NCBI RefSeq assembly: GCF_026151205.1
Contig: NC_087077.1
Coordinates: 2,666,001-2,730,000, forward strand
DNA length: 64,000 nt
Direction: 5' to 3'
Origin: Bolinopsis microptera
Taxonomy: Eukaryota > Ctenophora > Tentaculata > Lobata > Bolinopsidae
Shown here piece by piece: positions 4,200 through 58,363 of this stretch. The stretch's first letter is position 1; each line of letters begins with the position of its first letter. Position numbers and translations under genes: made by a program. The notes beneath the pieces are model-generated. The model saw only the letters and a list, made by a program, of their open reading frames with translations, was not told the origin of the DNA and made no database searches.

Positions 4200-4455
4200 C
4201 CCTCCTGGTCGCGTCAGTATACTTACCTCCCGTCAGTTTACTTACCTCCCGTCAGTATTCTTACCTCCCGTCAGTATTCTTACCTCCCGTCAGTATACTT
4301 ACCTCCCGTCAGTATTCTTACCTCCCGTCAGTATACTTACCTCCCGTCAGTATACTTACCTCCCGTCAGTATTCCTACCTCCCGTCAGTATACTTACCTC
4401 CAGTCAGTATACTTACCTCCCGTCAGTATACTTATCTCCCGTCAGTATACTTACT
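4200..4455. repeat. 20-bp minisatellite, about 12 units
   Basis: Direct repeats of CCTCCCGTCAGTATACTTAC, with a few units carrying ATTC for ATAC. No gene is seen around it. Confidence 0.9.
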
Positions 4456-23100: not shown

Positions 23101-26100
23101 AATCTGTAAAAATGTAATAATGGGGTTTAAGATATCTGAGTTGAGGGATAACGAAAAATATAATTCGATTTCTCAGGTTTCTCTCTGCCCCTTCCCCCTC
23201 TTTGGCCTTGCCTGTCTCTTAGGCAAGGCCAGGTAGAGTGGATTTAAGAAATTTAGTGAATTTCCACGATTTTTCATTATTCGAGATGATTTGGATCTGG
23301 TTGTAAAAGCAAAACAAAAATTAACACAACAAAAAGTGATAGCGAGATTATTTCCATCAAGACCAATTAAAACATTGACATCTGTAAGATTGCAAACATA
23401 TTTCGGTTAAATGTCTACATCATAATAGATAAATTCACGATATTTGATGATTCTTTAAATTAAGGATCAACACGTCACTCAACTTAAAGCTACTCTCAGT
23501 AATTTCTTCAATAGTCTGTTCCCAGGTATTGGCCTACATTTGTGTTTCGTCGACCTCTTTTTCATTCCTACTTGGAGTTGCAACTGTTTTCTTTACCTCC
23601 TCTTGCCTCCTTCTTTGAGATGCATTTGTATCGATTTTGTGGTTTGTTGAGCCTTTGATGGGGTGTACTCTTTTATGGGTCACAAAACACGGAAATATCG
23701 TAAATAATTTAGTTTTGATGAAATTCCGAAAGCTAGGTATTGAAACTGTGTAGATGAATACATTTGCAATGTTGTTCAAGTATGGAATACATTTACAAAA
23801 CATTACCGTTTTAAAGAGGCTATGATTACCATCAATCACCTGAAGAGCATAATATCCAAAAAGGGGCAGCATACTAATGCAATACACAACTGCTATCAAG
23901 ATTACAGTTACGATTCCCTGAAGATTAGCTGATCTCCCTTGTCGGTGGCTCAACCTTACAGCGATCACTATTAGCCAGATGCCACAAATCACTACTATGA
24001 CAGTGCAGAGTAGTGCTACAAGCAATATCACGAATGCTGATGTAATAAACAATAAAATAGAAATAAACATCAGTTCGCAATTTAGCTGACGTTCACGGTA
24101 TAGAACCTTAATTTTATCTATTTGCACAACTAATATTAAAACAAGGGCTAATGAGGCAGCCCACATGCAGCTTGCTAGAATGTGTCCTTGTCGACACGTC
24201 CAGCTTGCACCTCTAAAAGGAAAAAGCATAGAAGCTAGTTTGGAACAGTTCATAGCAACAGTCAAAAGGGCAGTACAGATAAAGAGAAACCATCTGGAGT
24301 ATGCTTGTAAATCACAGAAGTTTTCTCCTAACAACCAACTGTCCGTGATGGCAGCCAAGCAAGTGGGGAAGAGAATAACTAGTGTAGTTAAGAGGTCGAG
24401 AACTGCAACGTGTTGAATCAGCGCAGTTGTTATCTTGCCCACCCTAATCGCCTTCTGTTTAGTAGCTATTAAGATGACAAAACTTCCAATCAGTCCAACC
24501 AGTGTACCAAGAAGGAAAAACGTTGAGAAGAGTGAACGGGCCAAAACAGGGTTTACATTGTGATAAAGCCACCAGTTCTTCGCGTATCCTCCAAACAGGC
24601 TGTAATTGTTGGGAGGGGCCCTTATTTCTCCCATGTTTATTGCTAAGGATACAGAATTAAAAAATAAGGGTTAATAACTTCTTTGAATAATGAACACCAA
24701 ATATTTAAAAACCCGTAAGACGAAGCTTGTGAGTTTTGTCCTTGACATAGCAAATGTAAAAAAATATGTTTGATTAAAAATTCTGTTTGAAAATGTATCA
24801 TTTTTGTTGAACAGTACATATCATAACGTTAACATGTGGGAAGGGTTGAAAGAAATATCAAACGCTATAATATAATAATACTCTCGCGCTCTGAGGGCCG
24901 CGCATGATAACGCCCGAACGTAGTGAGGGTGTTTGCGCGGCCTGATAGAGTGAGAGAGTATTATCAGTTATATTTATAATGCACGACGGTTCCGATAGGA
25001 AGGGGTGTAATGTGATACGTGCGCATGATACAATATAGTACTAATAAAACAAATATTTAATAAAACAAATATTTATTTTTACGGCACAATCAAACAATAT
25101 CAATAATAAATATATCAGGGGAGGTTTGAAGAGGTTTCAAGTGCCGAAGGCCACTGCTTATCTTTAGGATTTGAGAGTGACCTGTGCTTGAAACCCCCTC
25201 AACCATCCACTACGTCAATATACTTGTTATATAAACTATATAGAAAAATATAACAATCTAAAATTACTTATTGGTTTAGTTTGGTGACATAGGAGAGCCC
25301 AGTTGAGTTTTAGTTTAGGTTTAAGTTTTAAGTTATAGTTTAAAAGGTTAGCCATGTTTCATGGCAGAGAGAGATATCATGTGTGCAGAGCCGTACCGGA
25401 TTTAGAATTTGAGATATAATATAAATTAGTTACCATGTATTAGGGTCATCTCGATTTTGGAGGGATAGCAAGTGCTTTTTAAGGTTAGATTTAATAACAC
25501 CTGACGAGGCTGACAAGTCTGAATTCTTGGAAGAACCCGGGATCATTATCCCATCTACATTAGCATCACATATTTCGAATACATAGGGGCTGAGGTCATT
25601 CCAAATTTTCGTAGAGGTCATTCCAAATTTTCGTAGAGGTGTACTAATTAACTGTGGAGCCGGAAACGTATTACGAGAAATGAAAGTGGTCTCTCGCTGT
25701 TCCTATGGCTATACCTGTTTTGATAATGCTCCCTGACAAAAATTTAGCGTTACCACTTTTCTTCCTCATAACACATTATCACATCTTCAAGTGTTTGCCT
25801 AGTCGGAAAGTGGTCTAAGATCAGACTGCTGGGGCGCCTGGTACAGAACCGTCCTGCGATTAAAGCCCCGAAACGGGGACCAGGTTTGTGGCTGATGATT
25901 CCGATGAAAGTTCCGGTGAGGGAGAGATGTTTTGGTGAGAGAGTAGCTGGTTTGGGAGTTTGATTGGTGTGGTGTTTGGTTGGTTGTGGTGTGATTACTA
26001 GCGTGGTTCGTTTGTTCGCAGTTATAACTGTGTTTCACCCCCAAGAAACATCAGAATAGGCGGACTGGTAGCCGCAAAACGAAATAGGTGGAACTAAGGC

Positions 26101-29100: not shown

Positions 29101-32100
29101 GATAAAGAGTAGTCGAGACATTTTGTGGGTACAAGATGGAAATATAAAAGTGTCAAACAGTATATATACGATAAAGTAATTCAAGTGTTGCAATTGGCAG
29201 AGCACAATACAGAGGTAACGGAAATTGTCCAATGCTACCAATATTATATAATATGAAATATCGACAATCAGATATATATACACATCTACTCCATCATAGG
29301 GGCAGGGATGAGGTTTTAAGAGACTTCTGATAGTGGTGTCTCATATTTGCTGTGGGTACAAGATAGCGTTCATATAGTTTTACAAGTGTCGTAATGATAA
29401 ACTTACCCGAGGTCTTATTTTTACAATTATTCGACTGATTAAGTCGTGTAGTGTTATTGGGTCTCATTTGACGATTCTTTCAAGAAAATTTCTGATTTTT
29501 TCTGAAGAGACTCAGTGATGACAATGTTCTAATGAAAACAAATAGATAAATCACGTATCATGACGAGGACAAGAGATAAAAGATTAAAGGACAAAAAAGA
29601 AATAAATGGACGGTAGAAAAGTCAAATTTATACGATAATACTACTATTAAATTAAAAATTTATCATGCCACTCAACTTAAAGCTGCTCTCAGTCATTTCT
29701 TCAACAGTCTGTTCCCAGATATGTGCCTACATAGCTGTTTCATCAACCTCTTTTCTATTCTTACTTTGAGTTGCAACTGTTCCTTTACCTCCTCTTGCCT
29801 CCTTCTTACTGTTTTCTGGGTCACGAAACACGAAAATATCGCAAAGAATTTCGCTTTGATGAAATTCCGAAAGCTTGTTATGGAAACCGTGTAGATGAAT
29901 ACATTTGCAATGTTGTTCAAGTATGGAATACATTTACAAAACATTTTCGTTTTAACGTAGCTATGTTTACCATCATAAATCACCTTCAGGACATAATATC
30001 CAAAAAGGGGCAACATGCTGGTGCAATACACAACTGCTATCAAGATTACAGTTAAGATTCCCTGAAGATTAGCTGATCTCCCTTGTCGGTGGCTCAACCT
30101 TACAGCGATCACTATCAGCCATGTGCCAGAAATCACTACTATGACAGTGCAGAGTAGTGTTACACTGAATACTACGATTGCTGATTTAATAAACAATTCC
30201 ATAATAATTATCAGGTCGCAACTTAACTGCTGATGAGAGTATTTAACGCTTATTTTATCTTTTTGCAGAAAAATAGGTAATAAAAGGGCTAATGAGGCAG
30301 CCCACATGCAGCTTGCTAGAATGTGTCCTTGTCGATAAGTCCATCTTGCACCTCTGAAAGGAAACAGGATAGACGCTAGTTTGGAACAATTTATAGTTGC
30401 AGTCAAAAGAGCAGTAGAACAGCTCAGAAACCATCTGGAATATGCTTGTAAAGCACAGAAGTTTTCTCCTAACAACCAACGGTCCGTGATGGCAGCAAAG
30501 CAAGTGGGGAAGAGAATAACGAGTGTAGTCAAGAGGTCGAGAACTGCAACGTGTTGAATCAGCGCAGTTGTTATCTTGCCCACCCTAATTACTCTCTGTT
30601 TAGTAGCTATTAAGATGACAGTATTTCCAGTCAGTCCAATCAGTGTACCAAGAAGGAGAATTGTTGAGAAGAGTGAACGGGCCAAAACAGGGTTTACATT
30701 GTCAAGAACCCACCCGTCTTCAAACAGACTGTCATCTTTGGAAGGGGCCCATATTTCTCCCATATTGCTAAGGATAGAGAACTACGGAATAAGTGTTAAC
30801 AACTTCTTTGAATAATGATCTCCAATTATTTAAAAAACAGTACGAGATAGCTTGTGACTTCTCTCCTTGACAAAAATCTGCTTGATAGAACAAGAAAATT
30901 TCTAATTTTTCTTGAACAGTAGATAGTATAACTTTAACATGTGGGTTGAAAGAAATACCAAACGCTATAAAACACCCTACCGTCATACCAATACCAAGAC
31001 CGGAGACTAAAATCGGAGCAAATACTTATAAGCGCACTTTGAAATATTAAAGAATTAAGTTGCTTCATTATACTTCTAAACGTTGACCACATGCGCGGAA
31101 TTTGAAGCGGAATTACTGCCATAATTGCTCTATTTCGCATTCCTCTCTAGGCCACGAATTACGAAACAGAGAATTCTTACGTCTGAGTTTTTGACTTGTA
31201 AGCCAAGACTCCTGTGTAAAATTTGGCTTAGATTCTGACTCACTGGCTCAAAAGTTGGGCTCACCGAAACTAAATATTAACTAAGTATTGGCGTAGCGGA
31301 TCTAATTTTCCACACTTTCGATTTTTCACTCTTTCGCCGTAGCCCAGGAAAATTAGGAAAATTAGGAAAACCAGGAAAATAGATCTCAACTAGGAAAACC
31401 AGGAAAAACAACCAGGAATCTGGACCATGATTAGAGTATTTGTTTAAAAAAGTCCAAAAGAGCGCGAATAGCAATTTTCGAGCTTCAAAATAAAAAGATG
31501 TTGCCTGTGGCGCACCAGAATTATTTTCATTTAATCTAGTTCGACATGCACTCTAATTCGACAAACCCTAAAGTTCGACTCTGTCGGACTTCAGTACACA
31601 ACCTGAAATCTAGTTCGGCATGTACTGAAATTCGACACGATAACTTCGACTGTCGAACTACGGTACACTACCCGCTGCACTCTCATTGGACACGAATTTA
31701 TCAAAACCAATCAAAACACAGCATCGATGGTTGGTATTTTATAGCATTGATATACCGTGATTATACCATTCAAAACTATCCGTTTGTCAGACTATCTCGA
31801 GTGTTCCACTTGTATGGTATAAAGATAAAGATAATCCGCTAAATCCAGCAGCGAACAAATTGGTGAACAATAGCCATGAACTCGTGTTCAATGAATCTAA
31901 TTGCGCTCTTTTCAACCGAACAAATGCTACCTTCTCCGACTTAGTTTGATAGGATTTTCGTGGATAAGTCGTGAAATAATTTGAATGACACTTTACAGCA
32001 AACGTTGGGCCTTTCATGATCACTTATCAACATGCACAGCTGCTACAAGTTAACGTAAAAACATTAACAGAGTTAAAATTATGTAAGAGGGTGTTCACCC

Positions 32101-35100
32101 CTGGACGCGAGAAGGTATTCAGGATCAGCCATCAGGTATTCAGGTTCAGGTATTCAGGATCAGGTATTCAGGATCAGGTATTCAGGATCAGGTATTCAGG
32201 ATCAGGTATTCAGGATCAGGTATTCACACGCATTTTGAATATTTTGCAACACTCGCCACTGTTTGTATGTGTAATCGACACGACAATCGCACACGTAATA
32301 TGTTCTAGTGTGCATCCTGTAGAAAATCAGACCTCACTCCTCATTAATACCACGTGATCTGTTCATGACGTGACACGTTGGATCACAAGCAGAAAATGGA
32401 GGGAAAATATTTGTCGGACTAGAATACGCTACCTGGACTCTAGTTCGACACGTACCGAAGTTCGACAGGGTTTATCTCTGGTGAACTTTAGTCGTCGAAC
32501 TAAAGTATATTATGTCGAACTGGAGTACGCCAATCTTGGATTCAGTACGCTATAGATTTTAATCGATCTATTAATATGCACTGCATACATTAGGAATTTC
32601 CATTATTATCATCGCGTGTGTTTTAATATCCTAATTGATAAAAGAAGACTCAATCTTGAAAAACAAACAACAGCTATTATTTTAAAATAACATTATGGAA
32701 TTACAATCTGCTACATCTAAATAATTTAGTAAAATTTCCATATTATTAAAATAAAATCAAGAAAGAGTATCTGGTCGACTAAATTGGGTTGGTCTACGAC
32801 TGGATACTGTTCTAGCTAACGTCCCATTCCCTCTACAGAATATCTTAGTGTCAACAAAACGTTTAAAACTTGCTATAGAAAGATAGTAAATGATAGGGTT
32901 GGCCACGAAATTCAGATTTAAAATGTAAACTACAAACCGGTATATCTGAGGAAAATAAAGAATTTTCCGCACATCAATTCCAGTGGCCATCACGGCAAAG
33001 AATGCCGAGTATGGAATGTTTGAAATAAAGAAATTGACAGATACTAAGATTATTGTCACAACCCCTTGCATCTGTAGTCCGGTCGTACTCTTCTTCGCAG
33101 CATACACCAGCAGCCATACCGAAGTTACCAGAATCACGAGAAACGGTCCAAACAGGATGAGAAGAGCAAAATAAATTACAATCCAATCGCACTTAGCTCT
33201 ATAACTACTGTTACACTGAAATGTAGCATAATCAAAGGACTGCGGAGGACTACACAACCAGTAGGGCACCAGTTGAGCCACCAGCACACTTGCCACCCAC
33301 ACCACCACCGCCACAATCCAGCCGGTTTTCTTGGAACGGGCCCGGGTCCTCAGGGGATACAACAGGTTGGTTAGCTTGCTGATGTTCATTGCACATAGAA
33401 GGTAGATGTCCGCGCAGAGGAACACTTCGTCCGCCAGGTTGAAGAAGGAGCTGATGATATCTGCAAATATCTGGCGTTCTGCCACGATGTAGACGGTGGA
33501 GGGGATGATGCAGGTGAAGGTGAAACCAAGATCAGCTAGAGCTGTGTTAGTGATCAGTATCACGGACACGGCGTCTAGTTTTATAGAGCTGTACTTGAGG
33601 GTGGCGAGCAGGACGGTGATGTTTCCTACTGTTGAGATAAGGGCAGAGCAGAGGTTCCAGCTTGCTAGTAGCCACTTCTCTGGGGAGGTTATCGGGGTTG
33701 GGTCCATGTTGTAGGAAATACTTGGTGCTGAGTTGGTTTGTTGAAACAATACAAACTTTGAGAAGTTAGACGAATTAGCTGAAAGGGATGAGTTTGCTGT
33801 GGTGGGAAACTAGGGGGAAATTGTTAGGCTGTTCCAGTAATCTTCGTAGTCATGAAAATCAACACCTGTTGAAAGAAAGACTGGTTAAATTAGGAGAGGT
33901 TAATTTCCTTTTTTGTTATGAAAGTTTAAAATGAGGAGTCCAAAGTATAAGGGTTGAAAAAACGCTCGACATCCTTCGCAATAAACGCAGACGAAAGTTT
34001 CAAGAAGTGTTGAAATTTAAATGGCTTCAAAAACGACGACAAGCTCACTTTATATAAACTTCCCGACTGGACTAAATACCACAGCAAATTTGACGGATGT
34101 TGTCCGCTCTGCATGAACCATCCCTTTGGTCGACATCACCCTGACTCTGACCTAGGCTCCATTCAGGCGGATTGTAATGACCTACAATCACCTGAATCTT
34201 GATATCCTGACAAAAGCGGCCGTTGGTTGGTCTCCATACTCACATACCACACATTTCATACCCTAAACCTATTATATAAGTCACAACACATGGTGCTGCA
34301 TAACCGCAGATCTAAGTAAAACTACAGGTAAATATAAGTACAGATACTGTGATAGTGACGTGTGGGATAGTTCACGTCAAAGCATGTAATTGCAGATCAG
34401 TTCCAGCTGGTAGGTCCAGCTGACAGGTGATCAATAATTGTGGGATTTAGTCCCCGTCCCACCACACCAAGTGACTTTAGGGTGGTAATCAGGGTGGGAT
34501 GAAGTAGCCAAAGCAAACGCTAAAAGTAGTCATGTGACGACGTAAGCTGTGAGAAATTGGCTTACGAAATTTAAATCTAATGAATGAATAATGAGGAACA
34601 ATTTAGAGTCACAGATATGCTATGTTACTACTTGTTATAGCTCTAAAATGCACGAAAGATGTAGAATATGCTCTGATATCCACATATTTTCAGTATATGT
34701 TAGAGATGCTGGATAATCTACTACAAAACAAGGCGATAAGGCTGGAGAAGTTTCTACACGATATCATTCCATCAGTTATCAGCTGTATGGTTTGCACCCA
34801 AATATGTGGTAAGTCAAATGGTTTGTCGATGGTCATAATGCATATATTATGATATGTACATTTTTTCGGGCGATAGTTTGCTGGATTTCTATTATAACTA
34901 GTGGTTAAGATAAGATAATTTTGGATACATCAGCAAGAGTGCGAACTAGACAAAATCTCGTAAAGACATTAAGATTTGAGCGCAGTTTGTGTTAACTTTT
35001 TAAAAATTAATAGGAAGAAAAAAAAATCGTAAGAAGACGTGCTTTTGCACACTTTGCCCTACTTTTGCAGGCTTCATTAAAAACTAATTGTAAAGATCCA

Positions 35101-38100
35101 GGTTTTCAGTTTCAATTCCGATGATTATCAGATTTAGGGATCGTGGAGGTGCTTTTACTTAATTTCATAGCTGGAAAGTTAATTATAAGTTCTTTTCAAT
35201 AACGTGTGTTCGAAAACACTGAAATAAATGAGGAACATCAAATATTCACGAAAACTCTCAATATGTAGTTTCAAAATGAAAAGCGCACAAGTAAGGTTAT
35301 ATTCCTGTTAAAAACAATTAACCTCAGCTAAATTCAGAAAGTAGATCCACCTAACCTCATAGAAAATAACCTCACCTAACCAATAACCTCACCTAACTCC
35401 AGAAAATAACCTCACCTTAACTCATATAAAAACGTCACCTAACCCCAGAAAATAACCTCACCTAATAACCTCCCAGGTCGACCCCTCGAACAGGACCACT
35501 GGTCAGTACGAGGGTTTGCCTCCAGGATCCTAGCAGGACTGGTCCGGTCCCACAACCTGGGAACTAACCAGATCCAGAGTAGGGTTATTAAGATGCTGCA
35601 TCACGCTCTGGATAAACAGAACTCTGGGCTCGTATCCACTTTCGGAGTGCTAGGTATTATGAGTTCGGGAGATTGTACATATCATATTACCTATCAGTAT
35701 TCAGTATCAACTCGTATGATAAAATAGTTATTGAAATATGATAACTTTCTCACGGATCGTACAGACTTCAACAGTCACATGACGAGAGCTGAGTCCCTAG
35801 AAAATAATCTAACCTTATATATTTCAGCTGGTTTGTGTGAGCTGGGTTCGTTAACAATCAGCACGATAGTTCTTCCTGAGATACGGAACATTTACAGGTA
35901 CACTATGACGTAATAGTAAGCAAAATTAGAAAAATATGTTTCTGATTAGAAAATGTCTCTACTGTATGTATATTAATATACACAGCGTTCAGGAGCCGAG
36001 TTGGGTAAAATAAGCTCATCTGAAAGTAGATGTAGCACACTGCGACGGATCCTTCATCTGTTTTGTTTTTCTAGACCACTTCTGGATCGGCTTAGTAAAG
36101 AAATTGTATCGGCAATAATCGCTTGGATTATATATTAATCAGGAATCATAACCAATAATAACAACCGATATAATAATAACTGAATACTGATATACCTGTC
36201 TCAGGAGAGTTGAACTAAAGTGTGCCACCTCCCAAGATCCTATAGACAGGCATGCTAAGGAGAGGATAAAGGAACTGTTAGTGCGGAAATGTGCCCACGT
36301 GGTTCAGGAACATCTCCCAGAGCTTCTCAGGTACAATTTGCTGGTTTATTCGTTTGAACATCTCCCAGAGCTCCTCAGGTACAATTTGTTGGTTTGTTCT
36401 TGAACATCTCCCAGAGCTCCTCAGGTTCAATTTGTTGGTTTGTTGGTTTGAACATCTCCCAGAGCTTCTCAGGTACAATTTGTTGGTTTGTTCGTTTGAA
36501 CATCTCCCAGAGCTCCTCAGGTACAATTTGTTGGTTTGTTCGTTTGAACATCTCCCAGAGCTCCTAAGGTTCAATTTTTTGGTTTGTTTGTTTGAACATC
36601 TCCCAGAGCTCCTCAGGTACAATTTGTTGGTTTGTTCGTTTGAACATCTCCCAGAGCTCCTAAGGTTCAATTTTTTGGTTTGTTTGTTTGAACATCTCCC
36701 AGAGCTTCTCAGGTACAATTTGTTGGTTTATTCGTTTGAGCATCTCCCAGAGCTCCTCAGGTACAATTTGTTGGTCTGTTCGTTTGAACATCTCCCAGAG
36801 CTTCTCAGGTACAATTTGTTGGTTTATTCGTTTGAACATCTCCCAGAGCTTCTCAGGTACAATTTGTTGGTTTATTCGTTTGAACATCTCCCAGAGCTTC
36901 TCAGGTACAATTTGCTGGTTTGTTCGTTTGAACATCTCCCAGAGCTTCTCAGGTACAATTTGTTGGTTTATTCGTTTGAACATCTCCCAGAGCTTCTCAG
37001 GTACAATTTGTTGGTTTATTCGTTTGAACATCTCCCAGAGCTTCTCAGGTACAATTTGCTGGTTTGTTCGTTTGAACATCTCCCAGAGCTTCTCAGGTAC
37101 AATTTGCTGGTTTATTCGTTTGAACATCTCCCAGAGCTCCTCAGGTACAATTTGTTGGTTTGTTCGTTTGAACATCTCCCAGAGCTCCTGAGGTACAATT
37201 TGTTGGTTTATTCGTTTGAACATCTCCCAGAGCTCCTCAGGTACAATTTGTTGGTCTGTTCGTTTGAACATCTCCCAGAGCTCCTCAGGTACAATTTGTT
37301 GGTTTGTTGGTTTGAACATCTCCCAGAGCTCCTCAGGTACAATTTGTTGGTTTGTTCGTTTGAACATCTACCAGAGCTTCTCAGGTACAATTTGTTGGTC
37401 TGTTCGTTTGAACATCTCCCAGAGCTCCTCAGGTACAATTTGTTGGTTTTTCGTTTGAACATCTCCCAGAGCTCCTCAGGTACAATTTGTTGGTCTGTTC
37501 GTTTGAAAATCTCCCAGAGCTCCTCAGGTACAATTTGTTGGTTTGAACATCTCCCAGAGCTCCTCAGGTACAATTTGTTGGTTTGTTTGTTTGAACATCT
37601 CCCAGAGCTCCTCAGGTACAATTTGTTGGTTTGTTCGTTTGAACATCTCCCAGAGCTTCTCAGGTACAATTTGTTGGTTTATTCGTTTGAACATCTCCCA
37701 GAGCTCCTCAGGTACAATTTGTTGGTCTGTTCGTTTGAACATCTCCCAGAGCTCCTCAGGTACAATTTGTTGGTTTGAACATCTCCCAGAGCTCCTCAGG
37801 TACAATTTGTTGGTTTGTTCGTTTGAACATCTCCCAGAGCTCCTCAGGTACAATTTGTTGGTTTGTTCGTTTGAACATCTCCCAGGGCTCCTCAGGTACA
37901 ATTTGTTGGTTTGTTCGTTTGAACATCTCCCAGAGCTTCTCAGGTACAATTTGTTGGTTTGTTCGTTCGAACATCTCCCAGAGCTCCTCAGGTACAATTT
38001 GTTGGTTTGTTCGTTTGAACATCTACCAGAGCTCCTCAGATACAATTTTTTGGTTTATTCGTTTGAACATCTCCCAGAGCTTCTCAGGTACAATTTGTTG

Positions 38101-41100
38101 GTCTGTTCGTTTGAACATCTCCCAGAGCTCCTCAGGTACAATTTGTTGGTCTGTTCGTTTGAACATCTCCCAGAGCTCCTCAGGTACAATTTGTTGGTTT
38201 GTTCGTTTGAACATCTCCCAGAGCTCCTCAGGTACAATTTGTTGATTTGTTGGTTTGAACATCTCCCAGAGCTCCTTAGGTACAATTTGTTGGTCTGTTC
38301 GTTTGAACATCTCCCAGAGCTCCTCAGATACAATTTTTTGGTTTATTCGTTTGAACATCTCCCAGAGCTCCTCAGGTACAATTTGTTGATTTGTTGGTTT
38401 GAACATCTCCCAGAGCTCCTTAGGTACAATTTGTTGGTTTGTTCGTTTGAACATCTCCCAGAGCTTCTCAGGTACAATTTGTTGGTTTGTTGGTTTGAAC
38501 ATCTCCCAGAGCTTCTCAGGTACAATTTGTTGGTTTGTTCGTTTGAACATCTCCCAGAGCTCCTCAGGTACAATTTGTTGGTCTGTTTGTTTGTACATCT
38601 CCCAGAGCTCCTCAGGTACAATTTGTTGGTTTGTTTGTTTGAACATCTCCCAGAGCTCCTCAGGTACAATTTGTTGATTTGTTGGTTTGAACATCTACCA
38701 GAGCTTCTCAGGTACAATTTGTTGGTTTGTTCGTTTGAACATCTCCCAGAGCTCCTCAGGTACAATTTGTTGGTTTGTTCGTTTGAACATCTCCCAGAGC
38801 TCCTCAGGTACAATTTGTTGGTCTGTTTGTTTGTACATCTCCCAGAGCTCCTCAGGTACAATTTGTTGGTTTGTTTGTTTGAACATCTCCCAGAGCTCCT
38901 CAGGTACAATTTGTTGATTTGTTTGTTTGAACATCTACCAGAGCTTCTCAGGTACAATTTGTTGGTCTGTTCGTTTGAACATCTCCCATAGCTCCTCAGG
39001 TACAATTTGTTGGTTTGTTTGTTTGAACATCTCCCAGAGCTCCTCAGGTACAATTTGTTGGTTTGTTCGTTTGAACATCTCCCAGAGCTCCTCAGGTACA
39101 ATTTGTTGGTCTGTTCGTTTGAACATCTCCCAGAGCTCCTCAGGTACAATTTGTTGGTTTATTCGTTTGAACATCTCCCAGAGCTTCTCAGGTACAATTT
39201 GTTGGTCTGTTCGTTTGAACATCTCCCAGAGCTCCTCAGGTACAATTTGTTGGTTTATTCGTTTGAACATCTCCCAGAGCTCCTCAGGTACAATTTGTTG
39301 GTTTATTCGTTTGAACATCTCCCAGAGCTTCTCAGGTACAATTTATTGGTTTATTCGTTTGAACATCTCCCAGAGCTCCTCAGGTACAATTTATTGGTTT
39401 ATTCGTTTGAACATCTCCCAGAGCTTCTCAGGTACAATTTATTGGTTTATTCGTTTGAACATCTCCCAGAGCTCCTCAGGTACAATTTATTGGTTTATTC
39501 GTTTGAACATCTCCCAGAGCTCCTCAGGTACAATTTGTTGGTTTGTTTGTTTGAACATCTCCCAGAGCTCCTCAGGTACAATTTGTTGGTCTGTTGGTTT
39601 GAACATCTCCCAGAGCTTCTCAGGTACAATTTGTTGGTCTGTTGGTTTGAACATCTCCCAGAGCTCCTCAGGTACAATTTGTTGGTCTGTTCGTTTGAAC
39701 ATCTCCCAGAGCTCCTCAGGTACAATTTGTTGGTCTGTTCGTTTGAACATCTCCCAGAGCTTCTCAGGTACAATTTGTTGGTTTGTTCTTTTGAACATCT
39801 CCCAGAGCTCCTCAGGTACAATTTGTTGGTTTGTTCGTTTGAACATCTCCCAGAGCTCCTCAGGTACAATTTGTTGGTCTGTTCGTTTGAACATCTCCCA
39901 GAGCTTCTCAGGTACAATTTGTTGGTCTGTTCGTTTGAAAATCTCCCAGAGCTCCTCAGGTACAATTTGTTGGTCTGTTCGTTTGAACATCTCCCAGAGC
40001 TCCTCAGGTACAAATTGTTGGTTTGTTCGTTTGAACATCTCCCAGAGCTCCTCAGGTACAATTTGTTGGTCTGTTCGTTTGAACATCTCCCAGAGCTTCT
40101 CAGGTACAATTTGTTGGTCTGTTCGTTTGAAAATCTCCCAGAGCTCCTCAGGTACAATTTGTTGGTCTGTTCGTTTGAACATCTCCCAGAGCTCCTCAGG
40201 TACAATTTGTTGGTTTGTTCGTTTGAACATCTCCCAGAGCTCCTCAGGTACAATTTGTTGGTTTGTTCGTTTGAACATCTCCCAGAGCTCCTCAGGTACA
40301 ATTTGTTGGTCTGTTCGTTTGAACATCTCCCAGAGCTTCTCAGGTACAATTTGTTGGTCTGTTCGTTTGAAAATCTCCCAGAGCTCCTCAGGTACAATTT
40401 GTTGGTCTGTTCGTTTGAACATCTCCCAGAGCTCCTCAGGTACAATTTGTTGGTTTGTTCGTTTGAACATCTCCCAGAGCTTCTCAGGTACAATTTGTTG
40501 GTCTGTTCGTTTGAAAATCTCCCAGAGCTCCTCAGGTACAATTTGTTGGTCTGTTCGTTTGAACATCTCCCAGAGCTCCTCAGGTACAATTTGTTGGTCT
40601 GTTCGTTTGAACATCTACCAGAGCTCCTCAGGTACAATTTGTTGGTTTGTTCGTTTGAACATCTCCCAGAGCTTCTCAGGTACAATTTGTTGGTTTGTTT
40701 GTTTGAACATCTCCCAGAGCTCCTCAGGTACAATTTGTTGGTCTGTTCGTTTGAACATCTCCCAGAGCTCCTCAGGTACAATTTGTTGGTTTGTTGGTTT
40801 GAACATCTCCCAGAGCTTCTCAGGTACAATTTGTTGGTTTGTTCGTTTGAACATCTCCCAGAGCTTCTCAGGTACAATTTGTTGGTTTGTTCGTTTGAAC
40901 ATCTCCCAGAGCTTCTCAGGTACAATTTGTTGGTCTGTTCGTTTGAGCATCTCCCAGAGCTCCTCAGGTACAATTTGTTGGTCTGTTCGTTTGAACATCT
41001 CCCAGAGCTTCTCAGGTACAATTTGTTGGTTTGTTCGTTTGAACATCTCCCAGAGCTTCTCAGGTACAATTTGTTGGTTTGTTCGTTTGAACATCTCCCA

Positions 41101-43223
41101 GAGCTTCTCAGGTACAATTTGTTGGTCTGTTCGTTTGAGCATCTCCCAGAGCTCCTCAGGTACAATTTGTTGGTCTGTTCGTTTGAACATCTCCCAGAGC
41201 TCCTCAGGTACAATTTGTTGGTTTATTCGTTTGAGCATCTCCCAGAGCTTCTCAGGTACAATTTGTTGGTCTGTTCGTTTGAACATCTCCCAGAGCTCCT
41301 CAGGTACAATTTGTTGGTCTGTTCGTTTGAACATCTCCCAGAGCTCCTCAGGTACAATTTGTTGGTCTGTTCGTTTGAACATCTCCCAGAGCTCCTCAGG
41401 TACAATTTGTTAGTTTGTTTGTTTGAACATCTCCCAGAGCTTCTCAGGTACAATTTGTTGGTCTGTTCGTTTGAACATCTCCCAGAGCTCCTCAGGTACA
41501 ATTTGTTGGTTTATTCGTTTGAACATCTCCCAGAGCTCCTCAGGTACAATTTGTTGGTTTGTTCGTTTGAACATCTCCCAGAGCTCCTCAGGTACAATTT
41601 GTTGGTTTATTCTTTTGAACATCTCCCAGAGCTCCTCAGGTACAATTTGTTGGTCTGTTCGTTTGAACATCTCCCAGAGCTCCTCAGGTACAATTTGTTG
41701 GTTTGTTGGTTTGAACATCTCCCAGAGCTCCTCAGGTACAATTTGTTGGTTTGTTCGTTTGAACATCTCCCAGAGCTCCTCAGGTACAATTTGTTGGTTT
41801 GTTCGTTTGAACATCTCCCAGAGCTCCTCAGGTACAATTTGTTGGTCTGTTGGTTTGAACATCTCCCAGAGCTCCTCAGGTACAATTTGTTGGTCTGTTG
41901 GTTTGAACATCTCCCAGAGCTCCTCAGGTACAATTTGTTGGTTTGTTCGTTTGAACATCTCCCAGAGCTCCTCTGGTACAATTTGTTGGTTTGTTCGTTC
42001 GAACATCTCCCAGAGCTCCTCAGGTACAATTTGTTGGTCTGTTGGTTTGAACATCTCCCAGAGCTCCTCAGGTACAATTTGTTGGTTTGTTCGTTTGTAC
42101 ATCTCCCAGAGCTCCTCAGGTACAATTTGTTGGTTTATTCGTTTGAAAATCTCCCAGAGCTCCTCAGGTACAATTTGTTGGTTTGTTGGTTTGAACATCT
42201 CCCAGAGCTCCTCAGGTACAATTTGTTGGTTTGTTCGTTTGAACATCTCCCAGAGCTCCTCAGGTACAATTTGTTGGTTTGTTCGTTTGAACATCTCCCA
42301 GAGCTCCTCAGGTACAATTTGTTGGTTTGTTCGTTTGAACATCTCCCAGAGCTCCTCAGGTACAATTTGTTGGTCTGTTCGTTTGAACATCTCCCAGAGC
42401 TCCTCAGGTACAATTTGTTGGTTTGTTCGTTTGAACATCTCCCAGAGCTCCTCAGGTACAATTTGTTGGTCTGTTCGTTTGAACATCTCCCAGAGCTCAG
42501 GTACAATTTGTTGGTTTGTTGGTTTAAACATCTCCCAGAGCTTCTCAGGTACAATTTGTTTGTTTGTTGGTTTGAACATCTCCCAGAGCTCCTCAGGTAC
42601 AATTTGTTGGTTTATTCGTTTGAACATCTCCCAGAGCTCCTCAGGTACAATTTGTTGGTTTGAACATCTCCCAGAGCTCCTCAGGTACAATTTGTTGGTC
42701 TGTTCGTTTGAACATCTCCCAGAGCTCCTCAGGTACAATTTGTTGGTCTGTTTGTTTAAACATCTCCCAGAGCTCCTCAGGTACAATTTGTTGGTTTGTT
42801 TGTTTGAACATCTCCCAGAGCTCCTCAGGTACAATTTGTTGGTTTGTTCGTTTGAACATCTCCCAGAGCTCCTCAGGTACAATTTGTTGGTCTGTTCGTT
42901 TGAACATCTCCCAGAGCTCCTCAGGTACAATTTGTTGGTTTATTCGTTTATGCTGGCACCTGTGCTCTGGTCACAGGTGTGCTTGTCTCAAGTTTGTTCG
43001 CGTTATTTAACAGGTAAATTGCTTACTAGCAATTAATCAGCATATTCACTTTTAACTTGGTCCTTTTTTGGTTTTTGCGTGAGCCCTCTTCACCGGTCTG
43101 TTCTTACTTATCAATACATTTCATCCCAGTGTTGACGACTACGAGCAGAAGTTTGGTGACATAGGACGTGAAATGTTTTACAAGGTCATGAGACCTACTT
43201 CTCACATGCCAATGATGAAATAA
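20101..43223 (+). CDS. TAF6: TFIID subunit 6 (TAF6), histone-fold and HEAT protein, eleven exons
   Basis: Coding exons are 20101-20229, 20384-20517, 21333-21426, 21865-21967, 22300-22387, 22615-22780, 34694-34808, 35477-35653, 35828-35897, 36205-36330 and 43130-43223. All introns are GT-AG, every phase matches, and the total is 1,296 bp (431 aa). TAF6 pairs with TAF9 through its histone fold and forms the HEAT core of TFIID in the nucleus. Residues about 10-85 are the histone fold (SIKAIAESVGV). HWLTIEGSTPTIPDNPP matches the HWLSIEG linker, and QQLYFKELT opens the HEAT part. DHWSVRGFASRIL, NQIQSRVIK and AGLCELG match DHWALRDFAARL, NNIQSRI and AGLAELG. The C-terminus DDYEQKFGDIG matches DAYRAEFGSLG, and the protein stops soon after, so the long Pro/Ser tail of vertebrate TAF6 is absent. 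Intron 6 (11.9 kb) holds three GPCR genes; intron 10 (6.8 kb) is the 48-bp array. Confidence 0.93.
22006..22134. mobile_element. 129-bp palindromic MITE in TAF6 intron 4
   Basis: The termini are inverted repeats GGGGCCATCTACTTAGGA and its complement, and the middle is a run of C flanked by imperfect complementary arms. No coding capacity. The flanks (ATA on the left, TTA on the right) are close to the three-base TWA duplication of PIF/Harbinger elements but do not match exactly, so the class is a guess. Confidence 0.65.
22781..23533 (+). other. start of TAF6 intron 6, no gene
   Basis: The 5' splice site GTTAGT follows TAF6 exon 6 at 22780. The rest is AT-rich intron sequence down to the 3' end of the nested minus-strand GPCR. 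Confidence 0.5.
23534..24634 (-). CDS. divergent class A-like GPCR, paralog A, nested in TAF6 intron 6
   Basis: A single-exon gene of 366 aa with seven hydrophobic segments. TM1 has GSFVILIAT (GS where class A has GN) and TM2 has LDLLTTL with Asp. The DRY position reads NCSKLASMLFPF, so the acidic-Arg pair is missing. TM6 keeps a proline (SMLPLFGYY), and the NPxxY position reads NVFIY. The tail is long and charged (QRRRQEEVKK). These changes are shared with the paralog at 29693, so they are not random decay. Ligand and G protein coupling cannot be told. The ATG at 24634 is supported by the same MGEI start in the paralog. The gene lies opposite to TAF6 within its intron. About 250 bp of upstream sequence is also shared with the paralog. 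Confidence 0.82.
   Translation of the reverse strand: MGEIRAPPNNYSLFGGYAKNWWLYHNVNPVLARSLFSTFFLLGTLVGLIGSFVILIATKQKAIRVGKITTALIQHVAVLDLLTTLVILFPTCLAAITDSWLLGENFCDLQAYSRWFLFICTALLTVAMNCSKLASMLFPFRGASWTCRQGHILASCMWAASLALVLILVVQIDKIKVLYRERQLNCELMFISILLFITSAFVILLVALLCTVIVVICGIWLIVIAVRLSHRQGRSANLQGIVTVILIAVVYCISMLPLFGYYALQVIDGNHSLFKTVMFCKCIPYLNNIANVFIYTVSIPSFRNFIKTKLFTIFPCFVTHKRVHPIKGSTNHKIDTNASQRRRQEEVKKTVATPSRNEKEVDETQM
24870..24965. repeat. ~90-bp inverted repeat (foldback) upstream of GPCR paralog A
   Basis: TAATACTCTCGCGCTCTGAG and a following GGCCGCGCA pair with the complementary end near 24960 (GCGCGGCCTGATAGAGTGAG). The two arms differ at a few bases. It could be a small MITE or a transcribed hairpin. 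Confidence 0.6.
25430..25690 (-). pseudogene. relic of a retroelement reverse-transcriptase ORF C-terminus (tentative)
   Basis: On the minus strand the sequence reads RNTFPAPQLISTPLRKFG, then STKIWNDLSPYV, then IKSNLKKHLLSLQ. This pattern (a WN.LP-like motif followed by a K-rich LK..LL end) is common at the C-terminus of non-LTR retrotransposon polyproteins. Only this short end is present and no RT core is visible nearby, so it is a dead fragment. The surrounding 24966-26097 shows no other gene. Confidence 0.4.
26655..26825 (-). pseudogene. CGGBP1/BED-like zinc-finger fragment inside the hAT element, copy 1
   Basis: The minus strand reads SKRSKQAKQGNV, then TRVAEFGKSSFYADNGKLFC, then RAC, then VDHIRNNHG. 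This resembles the finger region of CGGBP1, a domesticated hAT-family DNA-binding protein (TRV.EFG, GGKLFC.SC, H.RK). The fragment ends right after the finger; the rest of a transposase is missing. Confidence 0.6.
27167..27365. repeat. minisatellite inside the hAT element (~19-39 bp units)
   Basis: Alternating units of the form TTGACCAGACGACATAAAG and a TATAAAACTTGACCAG variant. It gives overlapping spurious open frames on the minus strand. Confidence 0.85.
27474..27660 (+). pseudogene. CGGBP1/BED-like zinc-finger fragment inside the hAT element, copy 2
   Basis: From the ATG at 27474 the frame reads MDRFVKRPADKPAG, then SSKRSKQAKQGNV, then TRVAEFGKSLFYADNGKLFC, then RAC, after which the similarity stops. 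It preserves the N-terminus that the minus-strand copy lacks, so it is probably the true start of the lost transposase gene. The two copies are inverted relative to each other. Confidence 0.6.
28540..29660. other. TAF6 intron 6 sequence with a repeated segment, no gene
   Basis: About 28930-29110 resembles 31690-31870 (shared motifs such as AACAAATTGGTGAACAA and a TTGTATGGTAT segment), so a diverged repeat of about 180 bp flanks GPCR paralog B. No coding region is supported. Confidence 0.5.
29693..30763 (-). CDS. divergent class A-like GPCR, paralog B, nested in TAF6 intron 6
   Basis: A single-exon gene of 356 aa, closely related along its whole length to the receptor at 23534-24634. It shares the MGEI start, the LDLLTTLVILFPTC TM2, the absent DRY (NCSKLASILFPF) and NVFIY in TM7. 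TM1 here keeps the usual GN (GLTGNTVILIAT), where paralog A has GS. The third outer loop and C-terminal tail differ most, and the tail is shorter and ends in a different frame context. Shared flanks (about 250 bp upstream and about 60 bp downstream) show that one unit of roughly 1.4 kb was duplicated. It is on the minus strand, inside TAF6 intron 6. Function beyond receptor is unknown. Confidence 0.82.
   Translation of the reverse strand: MGEIWAPSKDDSLFEDGWVLDNVNPVLARSLFSTILLLGTLIGLTGNTVILIATKQRVIRVGKITTALIQHVAVLDLLTTLVILFPTCFAAITDRWLLGENFCALQAYSRWFLSCSTALLTATINCSKLASILFPFRGARWTYRQGHILASCMWAASLALLLPIFLQKDKISVKYSHQQLSCDLIIIMELFIKSAIVVFSVTLLCTVIVVISGTWLIVIAVRLSHRQGRSANLQGILTVILIAVVYCTSMLPLFGYYVLKVIYDGKHSYVKTKMFCKCIPYLNNIANVFIYTVSITSFRNFIKAKFFAIFSCFVTQKTVRRRQEEVKEQLQLKVRIEKRLMKQLCRHISGNRLLKK
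31300..32560. repeat. repeat-rich intron segment: GTTCGAC motif clusters and a 14-bp minisatellite
   Basis: Two zones (31535-31670 and 32415-32530) carry many TTCGAC / GTCGAA motifs spaced 10-20 bp apart in opposite senses, as in subterminal regions of a non-autonomous DNA transposon, but I found no target duplication. Between them, 32110-32226 holds about eight units of GGTATTCAGGATCA. Near 31330-31420 is a GGAAAATTA / GGAAAACCA repeat. No gene is seen. Confidence 0.55.
32757..33707 (-). CDS. class A GPCR, nested in TAF6 intron 6
   Basis: A single-exon gene of 316 aa from the ATG at 33707 (the frame is open a little further upstream but without an ATG). TM1 has VGNITVLLAT with the GN pair, and TM2 has NTALADLGF with Asp. 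The DRY position reads NISKLTNLLYPL, the same SKL replacement as in the two neighbouring receptors. TM4 has a Trp, and TM7 has ANPIIYYLS, a proper NPxxY, followed by a helix-8-like FKRF. It is only distantly related to paralogs A and B. All three receptor genes in this intron are on the minus strand, which suggests local duplication followed by divergence. The ligand is unknown. Confidence 0.83.
   Translation of the reverse strand: MDPTPITSPEKWLLASWNLCSALISTVGNITVLLATLKYSSIKLDAVSVILITNTALADLGFTFTCIIPSTVYIVAERQIFADIISSFFNLADEVFLCADIYLLCAMNISKLTNLLYPLRTRARSKKTGWIVAVVVWVASVLVAQLVPYWLCSPPQSFDYATFQCNSSYRAKCDWIVIYFALLILFGPFLVILVTSVWLLVYAAKKSTTGLQMQGVVTIILVSVNFFISNIPYSAFFAVMATGIDVRKILYFPQIYRFVVYILNLNFVANPIIYYLSIASFKRFVDTKIFCRGNGTLARTVSSRRPTQFSRPDTLS
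33708..34693 (+). other. 3' end of TAF6 intron 6, no gene
   Basis: The AT-rich segment ends at the acceptor TATTTTCAG before TAF6 exon 7. The open frame starting at 34622 is exon 7 extended into the intron. Confidence 0.55.
35335..35470 (+). repeat. short tandem repeat in TAF6 intron 7
   Basis: Several copies of AATAACCTCACCTAAC and CCCAGAAAATAACCTCACC occur immediately before the acceptor of TAF6 exon 8 at 35477. Confidence 0.75.
36308..42955 (+). repeat. 48-bp minisatellite, about 140 units, made from the TAF6 exon 10 / intron 10 boundary
   Basis: The unit is 48 bp: GAACATCTCCCAGAGCTCCT, then CAGGTACAATTTG, then a T-rich part with variants TTTGTTCG, TCTGTTCG, TTTATTCG or TTTGTTGG. The first unit begins inside TAF6 exon 10: its last 23 bases (36308-36330, coding EHLPELL) and the 5' splice site at 36331 are the first half-unit. 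So each unit carries exon end plus CAG|GTACAA. A few units are short (for example near 37540, 37770 and 42650). Higher-order blocks are visible, such as a 240-bp (five-unit) block at 38579 repeated at 38819. Four of the six frames lack stops, producing open frames up to about 1,200 codons, which I judge artefacts. The array ends at 42955, about 175 bp before exon 11. Confidence 0.95.
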
Positions 43224-54281: not shown

Positions 54282-57200
54282 TCAAGATACATTGATTCCT
54301 CGGTATTTAGCAATCAATGGGTTATTAGACATGAAATATGCATATGAATCATGCTCACATGTATTTATTTTTGACATCAAGGTTTCGCTGAGATCCCAGA
54401 AGTGACCCTTTGACGATGCTCCACTCGCTATCAGTTCATTTTTATAACATTGAAGTCGAGCTTTGAATGCGTCTACTGAACTGGCTTCTTTAACCGAACT
54501 TGGTACTTTGTTCCAGTAATTGGCAACCCGGTTACTGAGGACCTGATTTCCTCTTTTATCTTTTAGGATCTTGGTACCACTACGTGATATCCTGAAAAGA
54601 TCTTGTCCATAGTCCACTTTACTCGTCGTTATTTTAAAGGTTTCAATAAGATCACCCCTCATACGGCGCTCCAGTAGTGTTGTTAACTGGAGGATTCTCA
54701 GTCTCTCGTCGTATGGTAGGATACCAATCCCGTCGATTATTCGTGTAAATTCTCTTTGAACATCTTCTATCTTCTTAATAGTCCTCCAGTTTCCGTGCTC
54801 TGCTGGTAGATTCCACACTTGCACAGCGTATTCGATGTGAGGTCGAACTAGAGTTCGGTAGACATTTAGCATAACAAATTTGTTACGGCAGATCAAGCTT
54901 CGTTTGATCCAGCCTATAACAGACTTTGCTTTTTTCACGGACTTATCTATATGGTCACTCCAGTCCAGGTTTCTGGTAGTTAGAACTCCAAGATCCTTTT
55001 CTGACTTCACTTGGGGGAGGCATTCCCCATTCATGAAGTACTCATGCATTGGATTGTTACGCCCAATATGTAGAACCTTACACTTGCCATCCTTCACATT
55101 GAATCTTAGGAGCCATTCCTTCTCCCACGCATTGAGTTTCAGTATATCATCTTGTGCAACACTGTGCTTAGCTGTGCTCGTTACTAGCTTAAGATCGTCA
55201 GCAAAGAGTGATACGAAGCTCTCAATTCCATCAGGGAGATCATTTATGAAGAGCAGGAAGAGCAGGGGGCCCAGCACGGTTCCTTGAGGGACCCCGGATG
55301 TTACAGCAAAGACTCTAGAAAATGATGATCCAACCCTGACGCGAAATGTTCTTCCTGTTAGAAAGTCTTCCACGACTGCAAGGGTGTTGCCAGATATTCC
55401 AAAGGATTGCAATTTTCTCAGCAATCGTTTGTGTGGTACAGAATCGAAAGCCTTCTGAAAATCGAGATACAGTATATCAGCTGACCCGTCCTTCTCTAGT
55501 ATCTCACTGACAATGTCCATACATTCCAGGAGGTTCGAGACGCAGGATCTTTTTGGTAGGAAACCGTGTTGTTCATTCACAATCATGGGGGATACGTGAG
55601 CTAGAATATGGTTTCTTAAAAACCTCTCAAAGATCTTGGAAAGAACACACGTTAGGCTAATAGGGCGATAGTTGCTGGCTTGGGATTTATCCCCCTTTTT
55701 ATGCAATGCAGTGACATTTGCTTGCTTCCAGATTTCGGGAATCTTTCCGTCGTTGTAGCATTTTTGGAACAGTGCTGTGACTGAATCAGCAAACTGTTTG
55801 TTTTCGGCTAGTGTTTTCAAAAGCTTGGGGTGTATATCATCAGGTCCAACGGATTTCCAGATGTTAACTTTACGAAGTTGATCTTGAACTTCACTTGTAT
55901 TGAATTTCAGGTCAGGAATCGTCTCCTTTGCGCTGTCTCCGGGTAGTGGGTCAGGTATTGAGGCCTGATCCTCCTTTACAAACGTGCTCTCAAAGAAAAT
56001 CCCAAGTTGGTTAGCCATATCATGTGCTGAGTGGAGTTCATCCCCACTAGCATCTCTGATTCCAGATATTGCAGCCTTAATCTTGCGCTTGGAGTTCATA
56101 TAGCTGTAGAAAGCTTTTGGATTTATTTTTAGCTGGGCTGCTGCTTTATTCTCATAGCATATCATGAGCTGCTGTTGCTTCTTCTCGTAAGCACCCTGCT
56201 GATGTAGTGCATGATTCAGGTTTTTTGATGTCGGGTCGCTTTCAAAAATAGACCACAGTTTTTCTTTTAGCTTCCGTGCCTTGATTTGACATGGTTTGTC
56301 CCAGACCGATCGTGATTTTATTGTACCTGCACGATTTATCCTCAATTTGACGACTGGAACAGCTTCAGCAATGGTGTTGGCATTGGCCTGAATCAGATTC
56401 CAGTGCTCTTCAATAGTCAAGTCATGATTAGCACTCCATTGCAGCGGCCCTGCTGTATCAATGATTAGGTCTTTGTTTGCTTTTGACCAATTCTTCTTCT
56501 GTTGAGTCACATATTCATCATGGTTAGCAATTGACCACTTACTGATAATTCCCACATGGTCTGATTTTCCCAGCGGTGCGGTTATTTGAACTTCCTGAAA
56601 TATGGCGGGGTCTGAAGTCATAACATTGTCAAGAGTTGACGATTGCACTGTTGTTAAAACCTTCCTTCTGCGAGTTTTAACATCGTCTCCGATAACCCAA
56701 CTGAGATCATGTTTTGCGAAAAAGTCAAGATAACACTGTTGAATCAGGAATTTTTGATTAATTGTATTATTCGGACATTTAACTACACCTAAATCCCACA
56801 CAACATCAGGAAGATTGAAATCTCCCATCATGATCAGTTCGGTATTAGGGGCTAGATTTTCAATCGCTACGGACAGATTAGATAACATAGATTGACACTT
56901 ATCGATTGTTAATGAAGGGGATCGGTATATAACAAATAACGCAATATCAATACAATCAGAATTTAGCATGACACATATGCAATCAGGTACATTTATTGTT
57001 ACATTGTGAGATTGGATAGAATCATGCACATATATACAAGAACCACCACCTTTCCCCGTTAATCGATCTACTCTATACAGCCTAAAGTTCGCTAATGCTA
57101 CCTCTGCATCATACACATCTGCACTGAACATTGTTTCTGTAATTCCCAAAACCTTGCAGTCGCTGGATTCGGCTACAATTTGCAGTTCACTGATTTTATT

Positions 57201-57346
57201 CTTCAAGTCATTTGCATTTGAATAAAAAACTTTCAGAAAATGACTAGCATTGTTTCTTAGTTTAGAGTTATAACTAGAGACAGCTAACCGGTCGCAACGT
57301 TGTCGGAGTTTTCCGATTCCGTACCACCTGTCAATAGTCCCTTGAA
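54282..57346 (-). CDS. LINE ORF2: apurinic-like endonuclease and reverse transcriptase
   Basis: Codes for the enzyme that nicks target DNA and copies the LINE RNA. The endonuclease comes first: VFYSNANDLKNKISEL, ITET with the catalytic Glu, GGGSCIYV, MGDFNLPDVVWD and the SDH end. The reverse transcriptase follows: NYRPISLTCVLSKIFER, LYLDFQKAFDSVPH, SGVPQGTVLGPLLFLLFIND and the catalytic SLFADDLKL. A C-terminal zone has RTLVRPHIEYAVQVWNL and a VANYWNKVPSSV end. No stop interrupts about 1,000 codons. The frame is open from 57346 but has no ATG until inside the endonuclease (ITETMF), and its first about 60 bases overlap ORF1 in another frame, so translation probably depends on reinitiation or frameshifting at the ORF1 stop, or on a non-AUG start. 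Confidence 0.92.
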
Positions 57347-58363
57347 ATCACTGTTCTTCGTCCGCTCCCGTCTTCTTTGCCGCGCCTCGTAGTTCGCTCT
57401 TCTTTCAGCCTGGGATAAGTCTGGATTTATCCAGTAGTCCTCACCATCCTTGAAAACCTTGCAGCCATTTCCGTACTTGTGCTTGCTACGGGCAAGATCT
57501 GGTGTCGCAAGCACAACAACAAGGGGTCGTGGCTTTGTTCTTTCCTTATTAGAGCCAGACCCGAGAGGGGGACCAGCTCTGTAGCAGCGTTCTATCTGGT
57601 CGATTGTGACATCTAGAACCATGGCAGCTATAAGCTTGTCGGCTGCGATCCTGTCCTTTATCTCTGTTAGTGAGCTCTCGGGAACAGTAGTGATCACGAC
57701 GTTCCTGATACCCTTCTCTTTGTCGAACACATCAGCTTCCTGTCGAGCTGTGGTCTGAGATACAATCTCAGACTGGCTTTCCTTAAGCGCAGAGGCTAAA
57801 CTGTTCTCGAAACATTTCTTCGTCTCGCGGCCAATAATACTTTCTGTATTCTTCACAACGTCAGCAAATGTTTTTGTCATTTTGTCTGTTTTGACTATCG
57901 TGGAGACAGTTTCGGTCATAATCTCTTTCAGGTGATCTTTAACGGCCTGCTTCACTTCTTTCTTCATATCTATACCTGATACATCGAGATCTTGCTTCCA
58001 GTTTTCCAAAACAGTCTTGACTTCACCAACAACGTCACTATAGGTCCCAATTAGCGTGTCTGCTCGGGCATTCAAGCTTTCGTTTTCCGTTTGTAACTCT
58101 CTGATTTTGAGCTGAAAATCCTTGATCTCAGCCGATACTCGCACATTCTCCTTTACAATGTAAGTGTATGATGTAGCACCCTTATCAGTGATAACAGGCA
58201 GAATGCTTGTCTTCATGAGGTTGAAAATCTTCAGCTTTGAATTATCAAACGCCTTTTGACTGTCTTCCTTCGATCTGTTGCTTTTATTTATAGTCGGGAA
58301 ACTATCCAATATATCGACAATTTCATTGTAGGCCGTCTTCGCCTTGGCTATATGGTCGGGCAT
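57284..58363 (-). CDS. LINE ORF1: coiled-coil RNA-binding-like protein
   Basis: An open frame of 359 aa ending at TAG 57286-57284. Residues about 80-105 have a heptad-like coiled coil (IKDFQLKIRELQTENESL), followed by a helical charged middle. The C-terminal part reads VVITTVPESSLTEIKDRIAA, then IERCYRAGPP and RPLVVVLATPDLARSKHKYG, the layout of the RRM-like and C-terminal domain of L1/CR1-type ORF1 proteins that coat the element RNA. The tail is basic. Start at the ATG 58363. Confidence 0.85.
   Translation of the reverse strand: MPDHIAKAKTAYNEIVDILDSFPTINKSNRSKEDSQKAFDNSKLKIFNLMKTSILPVITDKGATSYTYIVKENVRVSAEIKDFQLKIRELQTENESLNARADTLIGTYSDVVGEVKTVLENWKQDLDVSGIDMKKEVKQAVKDHLKEIMTETVSTIVKTDKMTKTFADVVKNTESIIGRETKKCFENSLASALKESQSEIVSQTTARQEADVFDKEKGIRNVVITTVPESSLTEIKDRIAADKLIAAMVLDVTIDQIERCYRAGPPLGSGSNKERTKPRPLVVVLATPDLARSKHKYGNGCKVFKDGEDYWINPDLSQAERRANYEARQRRRERTKNSDFKGLLTGGTESENSDNVATG

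Follow-up and report, generated by a model that had tools for sequence, protein, structure and literature searches.

A 139-unit tandem array of exon–intron boundary copies in the TAF6 gene of Bolinopsis microptera, a likely mirage-type minisatellite of very great length

The closest described counterparts of the array reported here are the amphioxus 'mirages', a word for which Canestro 2002 is said to be the cited source; amphioxus genomes are larger than the 264.65-Mb, 232-contig assembly analysed in this study. A human minisatellite, that of the interferon gene 6-16 / IFI6, is reportedly described by Turri et al. 1995 as having multiple splice donors (title); the same work is said to be cited elsewhere for 'interfering with gene splicing', and its units are reportedly about 12 bp, little more than a donor. 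According to the accessible part of PMC3087553, amphioxus Adh3 and globin genes carry minisatellite-like tandem duplications of exon–intron boundaries with AG/GT signals, and the Adh3 data together with RT-PCR on globin genes 'suggest' that these mirages leave regular splicing undisturbed. In amphioxus, boundary arrays have been suggested to be common. In human UBC, a tandem array of dual-specific AG/GT splice sites is reported (PMC10809524, accessible part), while internal tandem repeats at exon–intron boundaries of human duplicated genes have been linked to new introns (PMC2812944, accessible part).

The window, that is, the whole 64,000-nucleotide stretch of Bolinopsis microptera DNA that was analysed (C6:2666001-2730000 of the assembly), contains on its + strand a TAF6 gene in which a 48-bp unit spanning an exon–intron boundary is repeated 139 times. 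A first-pass annotation of this DNA had known of no described case like it, a statement that does not survive comparison with the amphioxus mirages, UBC and, by title, the human minisatellite donors. Similar to the 6-16 / IFI6 minisatellite, as far as that title tells, the TAF6 array would supply several donors to one transcript, with the difference that every unit also copies coding sequence and that there are 139 units. The likeness to the amphioxus mirages is closer, as both have boundary-spanning repeats beside an authentic exon and AG/GT in many units, and the BflGb9 mirage duplicates the 3′ boundary of its exon, the same side as in TAF6; unit lengths in Adh3 are 10–72 bp vs. 48 bp here, while the BflGb6 alleles hold 6 and 3 units of 150–160 bp on the acceptor side, in contrast to 139 units of 48 bp (PMC3087553, accessible part). 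UBC resembles TAF6 in having AG/GT at a fixed place in each unit and a unit length divisible by 3, but it is built of coding ubiquitin monomers, of which human has 9, and their splicing was shown by RNA, whereas the TAF6 units are intronic and known from sequence (PMC10809524, accessible part). Likewise, the repeats in human duplicated genes share with TAF6 a minisatellite expansion at a boundary that alters gene structure, although they average 30-bp units in four copies and their boundary cases are linked to new introns, while in TAF6 an existing intron was lengthened (PMC2812944, accessible part).

A literature search on minisatellite, exon–intron boundary, tandem and splice site matched only PMC2812944 and PMC3087553, and no boundary array approaching 139 copies was found in the literature searched, in which TAF6 was not a term and subscription papers were mostly outside the coverage. 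The accessible part of the amphioxus huntingtin paper (PMC2206037) mentions tandem repeats in the assembly and no mirage. By this comparison, the TAF6 array is best regarded as a new, very long case of the mirage type, a kind already described in amphioxus. The features of the gene and the array are as follows.

22613-22753, + strand: TAF6 exon match (RELTTKCISNEKQVRDEAVHSLSTDPGLAAVLPRLTVFIIEGIRVGL), exon ends approximate
34694-34808, + strand: TAF6 exon (YMLEMLDNLLQNKAIRLEKFLHDIIPSVISCMVCTQIC)
35477-35653, + strand: TAF6 exon (RPLEQDHWSVRGFASRILAG...), end placed by eye from the frame; the splice-translation script used 35655
35828-35897, + strand: TAF6 exon, upstream (AGLCELGSLTISTIVLPEIRNIYR)
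36205-36330, + strand: TAF6 penultimate coding exon, 126 nt, ...RKCAHVVQEHLPELL plus 2 nt of the next codon
36308-42949, + strand: 48-bp tandem array, 139 units, each a 23-nt exon-end copy and a 25-nt intron-start copy
36331-36336, + strand: native 5′ splice site CAG/GTACAA (donor 1), presumed from the sequence to be the real donor
36379-36384, + strand: donor 2, in unit 2, the only other donor keeping the full-length TAF6 frame
36401-36403, + strand: in-frame TGA, reached since unit 2 is 46 bp
42950-43129, + strand: unique intron tail, 180 nt, with native acceptor TTTCATCCCAG
43130-43223, + strand: last TAF6 coding exon, SVDDYEQKFGDIGREMFYKVMRPTSHMPMMK, stop TAA at 43221-43223

The assignment of the gene to TAF6, already made in the first pass, was confirmed, as the fragment joined from its exons contains the TAF6_C HEAT domain (PF07571, E 3.7e-37, above the Pfam cut-off) and human TAF6 chains with it at E 4.1e-37 with no gap across the exon join. 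In an exon-by-exon search of the assembly with TAF6_C at E <= 0.001, which can miss weak matches, three exon matches were obtained, all at the TAF6 locus; TAF6 appears to be single-copy in this animal. The N-terminal histone fold (PF02969) gave no match at E <= 0.001 in an exon-by-exon search of the assembly, and human TAF6 residues 14–28 and 48–76 had weak matches at 20131 and 20387 (E 0.91 and 6.9); the array-bearing exon, numbered 10 in the first pass, is here called penultimate, with respect to a model whose N-terminal exons are only partly located. Three rhodopsin-family receptor frames (7tm_1) lie on the minus strand at 23534-24670, 29693-30781, and 32757-33809 (E 7.4e-13, 4.6e-16, and 1e-19, respectively); flanked by the TAF6 exon matches at 22613 and 34694 but read from the opposite strand, they are apparently nested genes, and a small TAF6 exon may lie unseen among them. 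The next gene downstream of TAF6 is archease (PF01951, E 1.8e-44).

Tandem Repeats Finder (TRF) placed the array at 36308-42949 with a period of 48, 139.0 copies, 94% matches and a score of 11716, which turned the earlier estimate of ~140 copies into an exact number. Unit 1 consists of the last 23 nt of the penultimate exon (36308-36330, ...EHLPELL) and the first 25 nt of the intron, in agreement with the earlier proposal that the gene's own exon–intron junction founded the array. When the array was divided into units, 133 of the 139 were exactly 48 bp long, and the other six measured 46, 47, 45 and, three times, 40 bp; the units with indels are 2, 24, 26, 31, 130, and 133, and units 32–129 are free of them, as if the two ends had escaped homogenisation. 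The donor string CAGGTACAA (CAG/GTACAA) is unbroken in 130/139 units and GT occupies the donor place in 137/139 (AT in units 37 and 43), so that the donor is indeed kept in nearly every unit, as first described. The shorter AGGT occurs in 136/139 units, and 108/139 have the complete 23-nt exon end, with C or T at one synonymous site, together with the donor.

The array stops after a whole unit. The start of the last exon at 43130 had been correctly placed in the first pass, but the array was there given an end ~175 bp before that exon, while it ends at 42949, 180 nt before it. The whole intron covers 36331-43129 (6799 nt), and by arithmetic it would measure 25 + 180 = 205 nt after subtraction of 138 units. 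A short inverted repeat, GCACCTGTG...CACAGGTGTGC, was seen by eye at 42956-42982, just past the last unit.

A 30-nt core of the unit had 112 matches in the window vs. 0 in shuffles, and also 112 matches in the whole assembly, all forward and none outside the TAF6 array; 100 of these 112 were listed, all in the array, and the equal window count puts the rest there. Minisatellites as such are common, as the window alone yielded 49 TRF rows, some of them overlapping. In the assembly, three copies of AGGTAAGT at gaps of 4–34 were found at 398+560 places vs. 0+0 for the reversed word. For three control 8-mers composed of those letters the numbers were 122+478, 197+71, and 46+69, with 392+44, 115+57, and 13+27 for the reversed controls, all counts including overlapping triples from one array. 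An enrichment of the donor word in arrays was dropped as a candidate, since, although it ranked highest of the eight words, controls reach 600, triples overlap, and the word doubles as a genuine splice motif. Arrays of several scrambled words being numerous as well, it is unsurprising to find a donor within an array.

Among the 100 of 958 donor-word matches listed, ten clusters at nine loci were inspected by eye, as sequence and in three frames ahead of the first donor, and no exon was recognised at the start of these arrays; the TAF6 array differs in starting inside a well-supported exon. These tandem arrays are built of several unrelated units, each containing AGGTAAGT, and are located at C1:34500-39700, C1:759400-764200, C1:3112200-3116900, C1:3541600-3544800, C1:16702800-16706000, C2:2664900-2669500, C2:2722100-2725300, C2:3985000-3989300, and C2:21864300-21873100 (G000, L008-L016). 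Two of them on C2, L013 and L014 (about 2.667 and 2.724 Mb), lie ~57 kb apart, share at least 260 nt of near-identical upstream flank and hold 24 and 3 donor-word copies, respectively, which points to a duplication whose array changed length. Within the window, a 19-bp array of ~13 units occupies 4212-4454 on the minus strand, with a minus-strand consensus near GGGAGGTAAGTATACTGAC; by eye, 7/13 units contain AGGTAAGT followed by a branch-point-like ACTGAC, and no adjoining exon was seen. Also in the window are a 230-bp unit present twice with 100% matches (59884-60332), either duplicated very recently or doubled in the assembly, and a long open frame of non-LTR retrotransposon type on the minus strand (54282-57347; RVT_1 E 3.1e-32 plus an endonuclease domain). 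Rfam gave no match at gathering score within the window.

To predict the products, each of the 139 donor places in turn was taken as the end of the exon, and the resulting join to the last exon was translated. A complete TAF6 end was predicted from donors 1 and 2 only, with donor 2 adding 16 aa (RYNLLVYSFEHLPELL). With unit 2 shortened to 46 bp by the loss of 2 bp, the frame from donors 3–139 meets the TGA at 36401-36403 and the predicted protein is without its last 31 residues; these messages are probably decayed. As TAF6 is essential and apparently single-copy, the array would be tolerable only if donor 1 (or 2) wins mostly, and splicing most likely proceeds mainly from donor 1, which is nearest to the exon's own acceptor (exon definition). 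The donor nonamer is kept in 124/133 full-length units, rank 9 of 40 nine-mer windows (median window 114); being neither specially kept nor lost, it gives no sign that selection favours or disfavours the copies as donors. Masking of the donors by RNA structure was also considered and dropped, as folds of 36205-36550 and 41713-41904 revealed no special structure hiding donors and both stretches folded less stably than their shuffles (z 2.01 and 1.95, with 99/100 and 198/200 shuffles, respectively, folding at least as well).

We consider it likely that the array is a giant mirage minisatellite whose growth was tolerated and that splicing uses mainly the first donor. A 48-bp stretch straddling the junction of the penultimate exon with its intron would have undergone tandem duplication and expanded to 139 copies, presumably through slippage or unequal exchange. 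With the exon and the real donor remaining as unit 1, the coding sequence would have been kept and the extra copies turned intronic, lengthening the intron from about 205 nt to 6799 nt. Donor 1, closest to the exon acceptor, would be chiefly used, donor 2 would add its 16 residues, and donors 3–139 would bring in the TGA at 36401 and yield a truncated, probably decayed message, so the extra copies would be tolerated decoys with, putatively, no role. Consistent with a mirage, the unit lies across the exon–intron boundary (23 nt of exon and 25 nt of intron), and AG/GT splice signals are present in many units (AGGT in 136/139, GT in 137/139). The authentic exon beside the copies is intact by alignment. 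Further, an apparently single-copy TAF6 must work, which was counted for a tolerated mirage.

An alternative, which we judge unlikely, is that CTCAG/GTACAA in each unit serves as acceptor and donor at once and that the intron is removed in steps by recursive or dual-specific splicing. If donor 1 were spliced to the AG of any later unit, the same junction would be rebuilt, and the final mRNA would therefore carry no trace of the step. CCCAG and CTCAG/GT are found in most units, and the AGGT core kept in 136/139 units fits such a use. By a crude measure on one unit, unit 74, the CCCAG/A site has 15/20 pyrimidines and the CTCAG/G site 12/20, compared with 11–14/20 at five TAF6 acceptors; that these acceptor-like sites are about as pyrimidine-rich as real TAF6 acceptors is a point against the mirage reading. 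However, the donor is weak by consensus (no G at +5), the UBC repeats are coding ubiquitin monomers, unlike the TAF6 units, and, the array being intronic, removal in one step would be enough. A more elaborate form, which we think quite improbable, makes the array a working splicing device of 136 AG/GT dual-specific sites, at which random steps rebuild the junction, while unit 2 now, or more units in past alleles, gave TAF6 variants that differ in how many times a 16-residue repeat occurs. If true, this would explain an excess of synonymous variants among the units.

That excess is one argument for a coding array, in which the 48-bp unit (16 codons, EHLPELLRYNLLVCSF) is or was translated to give TAF6 forms with varying repeat number, a reading that appears very unlikely. 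The period is divisible by 3, long open frames run in the exon frame of the unit, and 13/27 variant types in the 133 full-length units are synonymous in that frame vs. 7.0 expected with transition/transversion numbers kept (p 0.003), in a test chosen after the variants had been seen. The exon frame was the best of six frames, and the excess is divided between the exonic half (6/12, p 0.03) and the intronic half (7/15, p 0.07) of the unit. In contrast, the 2-bp loss in unit 2 leads to the TGA at 36401, so only one additional unit is encodable now, and one variant type makes a stop; the test is post hoc on few variant types, and a reverse frame sharing the variable sites reaches p 0.009. The synonymous excess is thus no more than a lead; were it real, the unit would have been translated at some point, and a purely intronic decoy array, as the mirage reading has it, does not predict it.

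As to the origin of the array, the exon most likely preceded it, with a local duplication across the boundary and subsequent growth, as judged from the following comparisons. Subtracting 138 units leaves an intron of ordinary length (205 nt), and the exon-join peptide HVVQEHLPELLSVDDYEQKFGDIG aligns gap-free with human TAF6, although few EHLPELL residues agree with human; the exon-first order proposed in the first pass is upheld by this gap-free join. The core without a match elsewhere, the start inside the exon and the end after a whole unit fit a local boundary duplication that then grew. Units 1 and 17 have the same sequence, and the rare TTTGCTGG variant is confined to units 1, 13, 16, and 17, indicating that the exon copy took part in turnover, as source or recipient. 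Neighbouring units are hardly more alike than distant ones (2.15 differences at lag 1, 2.2–2.4 at lags 8–80), and identical blocks extend to 4 units at most, vs. 5 in shuffles. Unit order thus shows little trace of stepwise growth, which is a further point against the mirage.

An assembly artefact or a wrong copy number seems highly improbable. Long arrays can be mis-sized and the array was read in a single assembly, but 50 distinct sequences are present among its 139 units, the longest identical block lies within the shuffle range, and the contigs are long (C1 26.2 Mb), as in long-read assemblies. That an independent satellite inserted there and replaced the end of the exon is scarcely credible: the array is nearly identical to the exon, the two may have exchanged sequence by gene conversion (unit 1 = unit 17) and few EHLPELL residues agree with human TAF6, but the core is without another match in the assembly, the exon frame and length are kept against human TAF6, and dropping 138 units leaves a normal intron length.

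On the giant-mirage reading, harm from the array is probably slight, since a working message comes from the first copies only. The intron of what is apparently the only TAF6 gene would then have grown about thirty-fold from its own boundary with the protein untouched, and the copy number of this boundary minisatellite greatly exceeds the 3 and 6 units described for a single globin gene (PMC3087553, accessible part). The locus would offer a natural test, without any designed construct, of how the spliceosome chooses among 137 near-identical donors.
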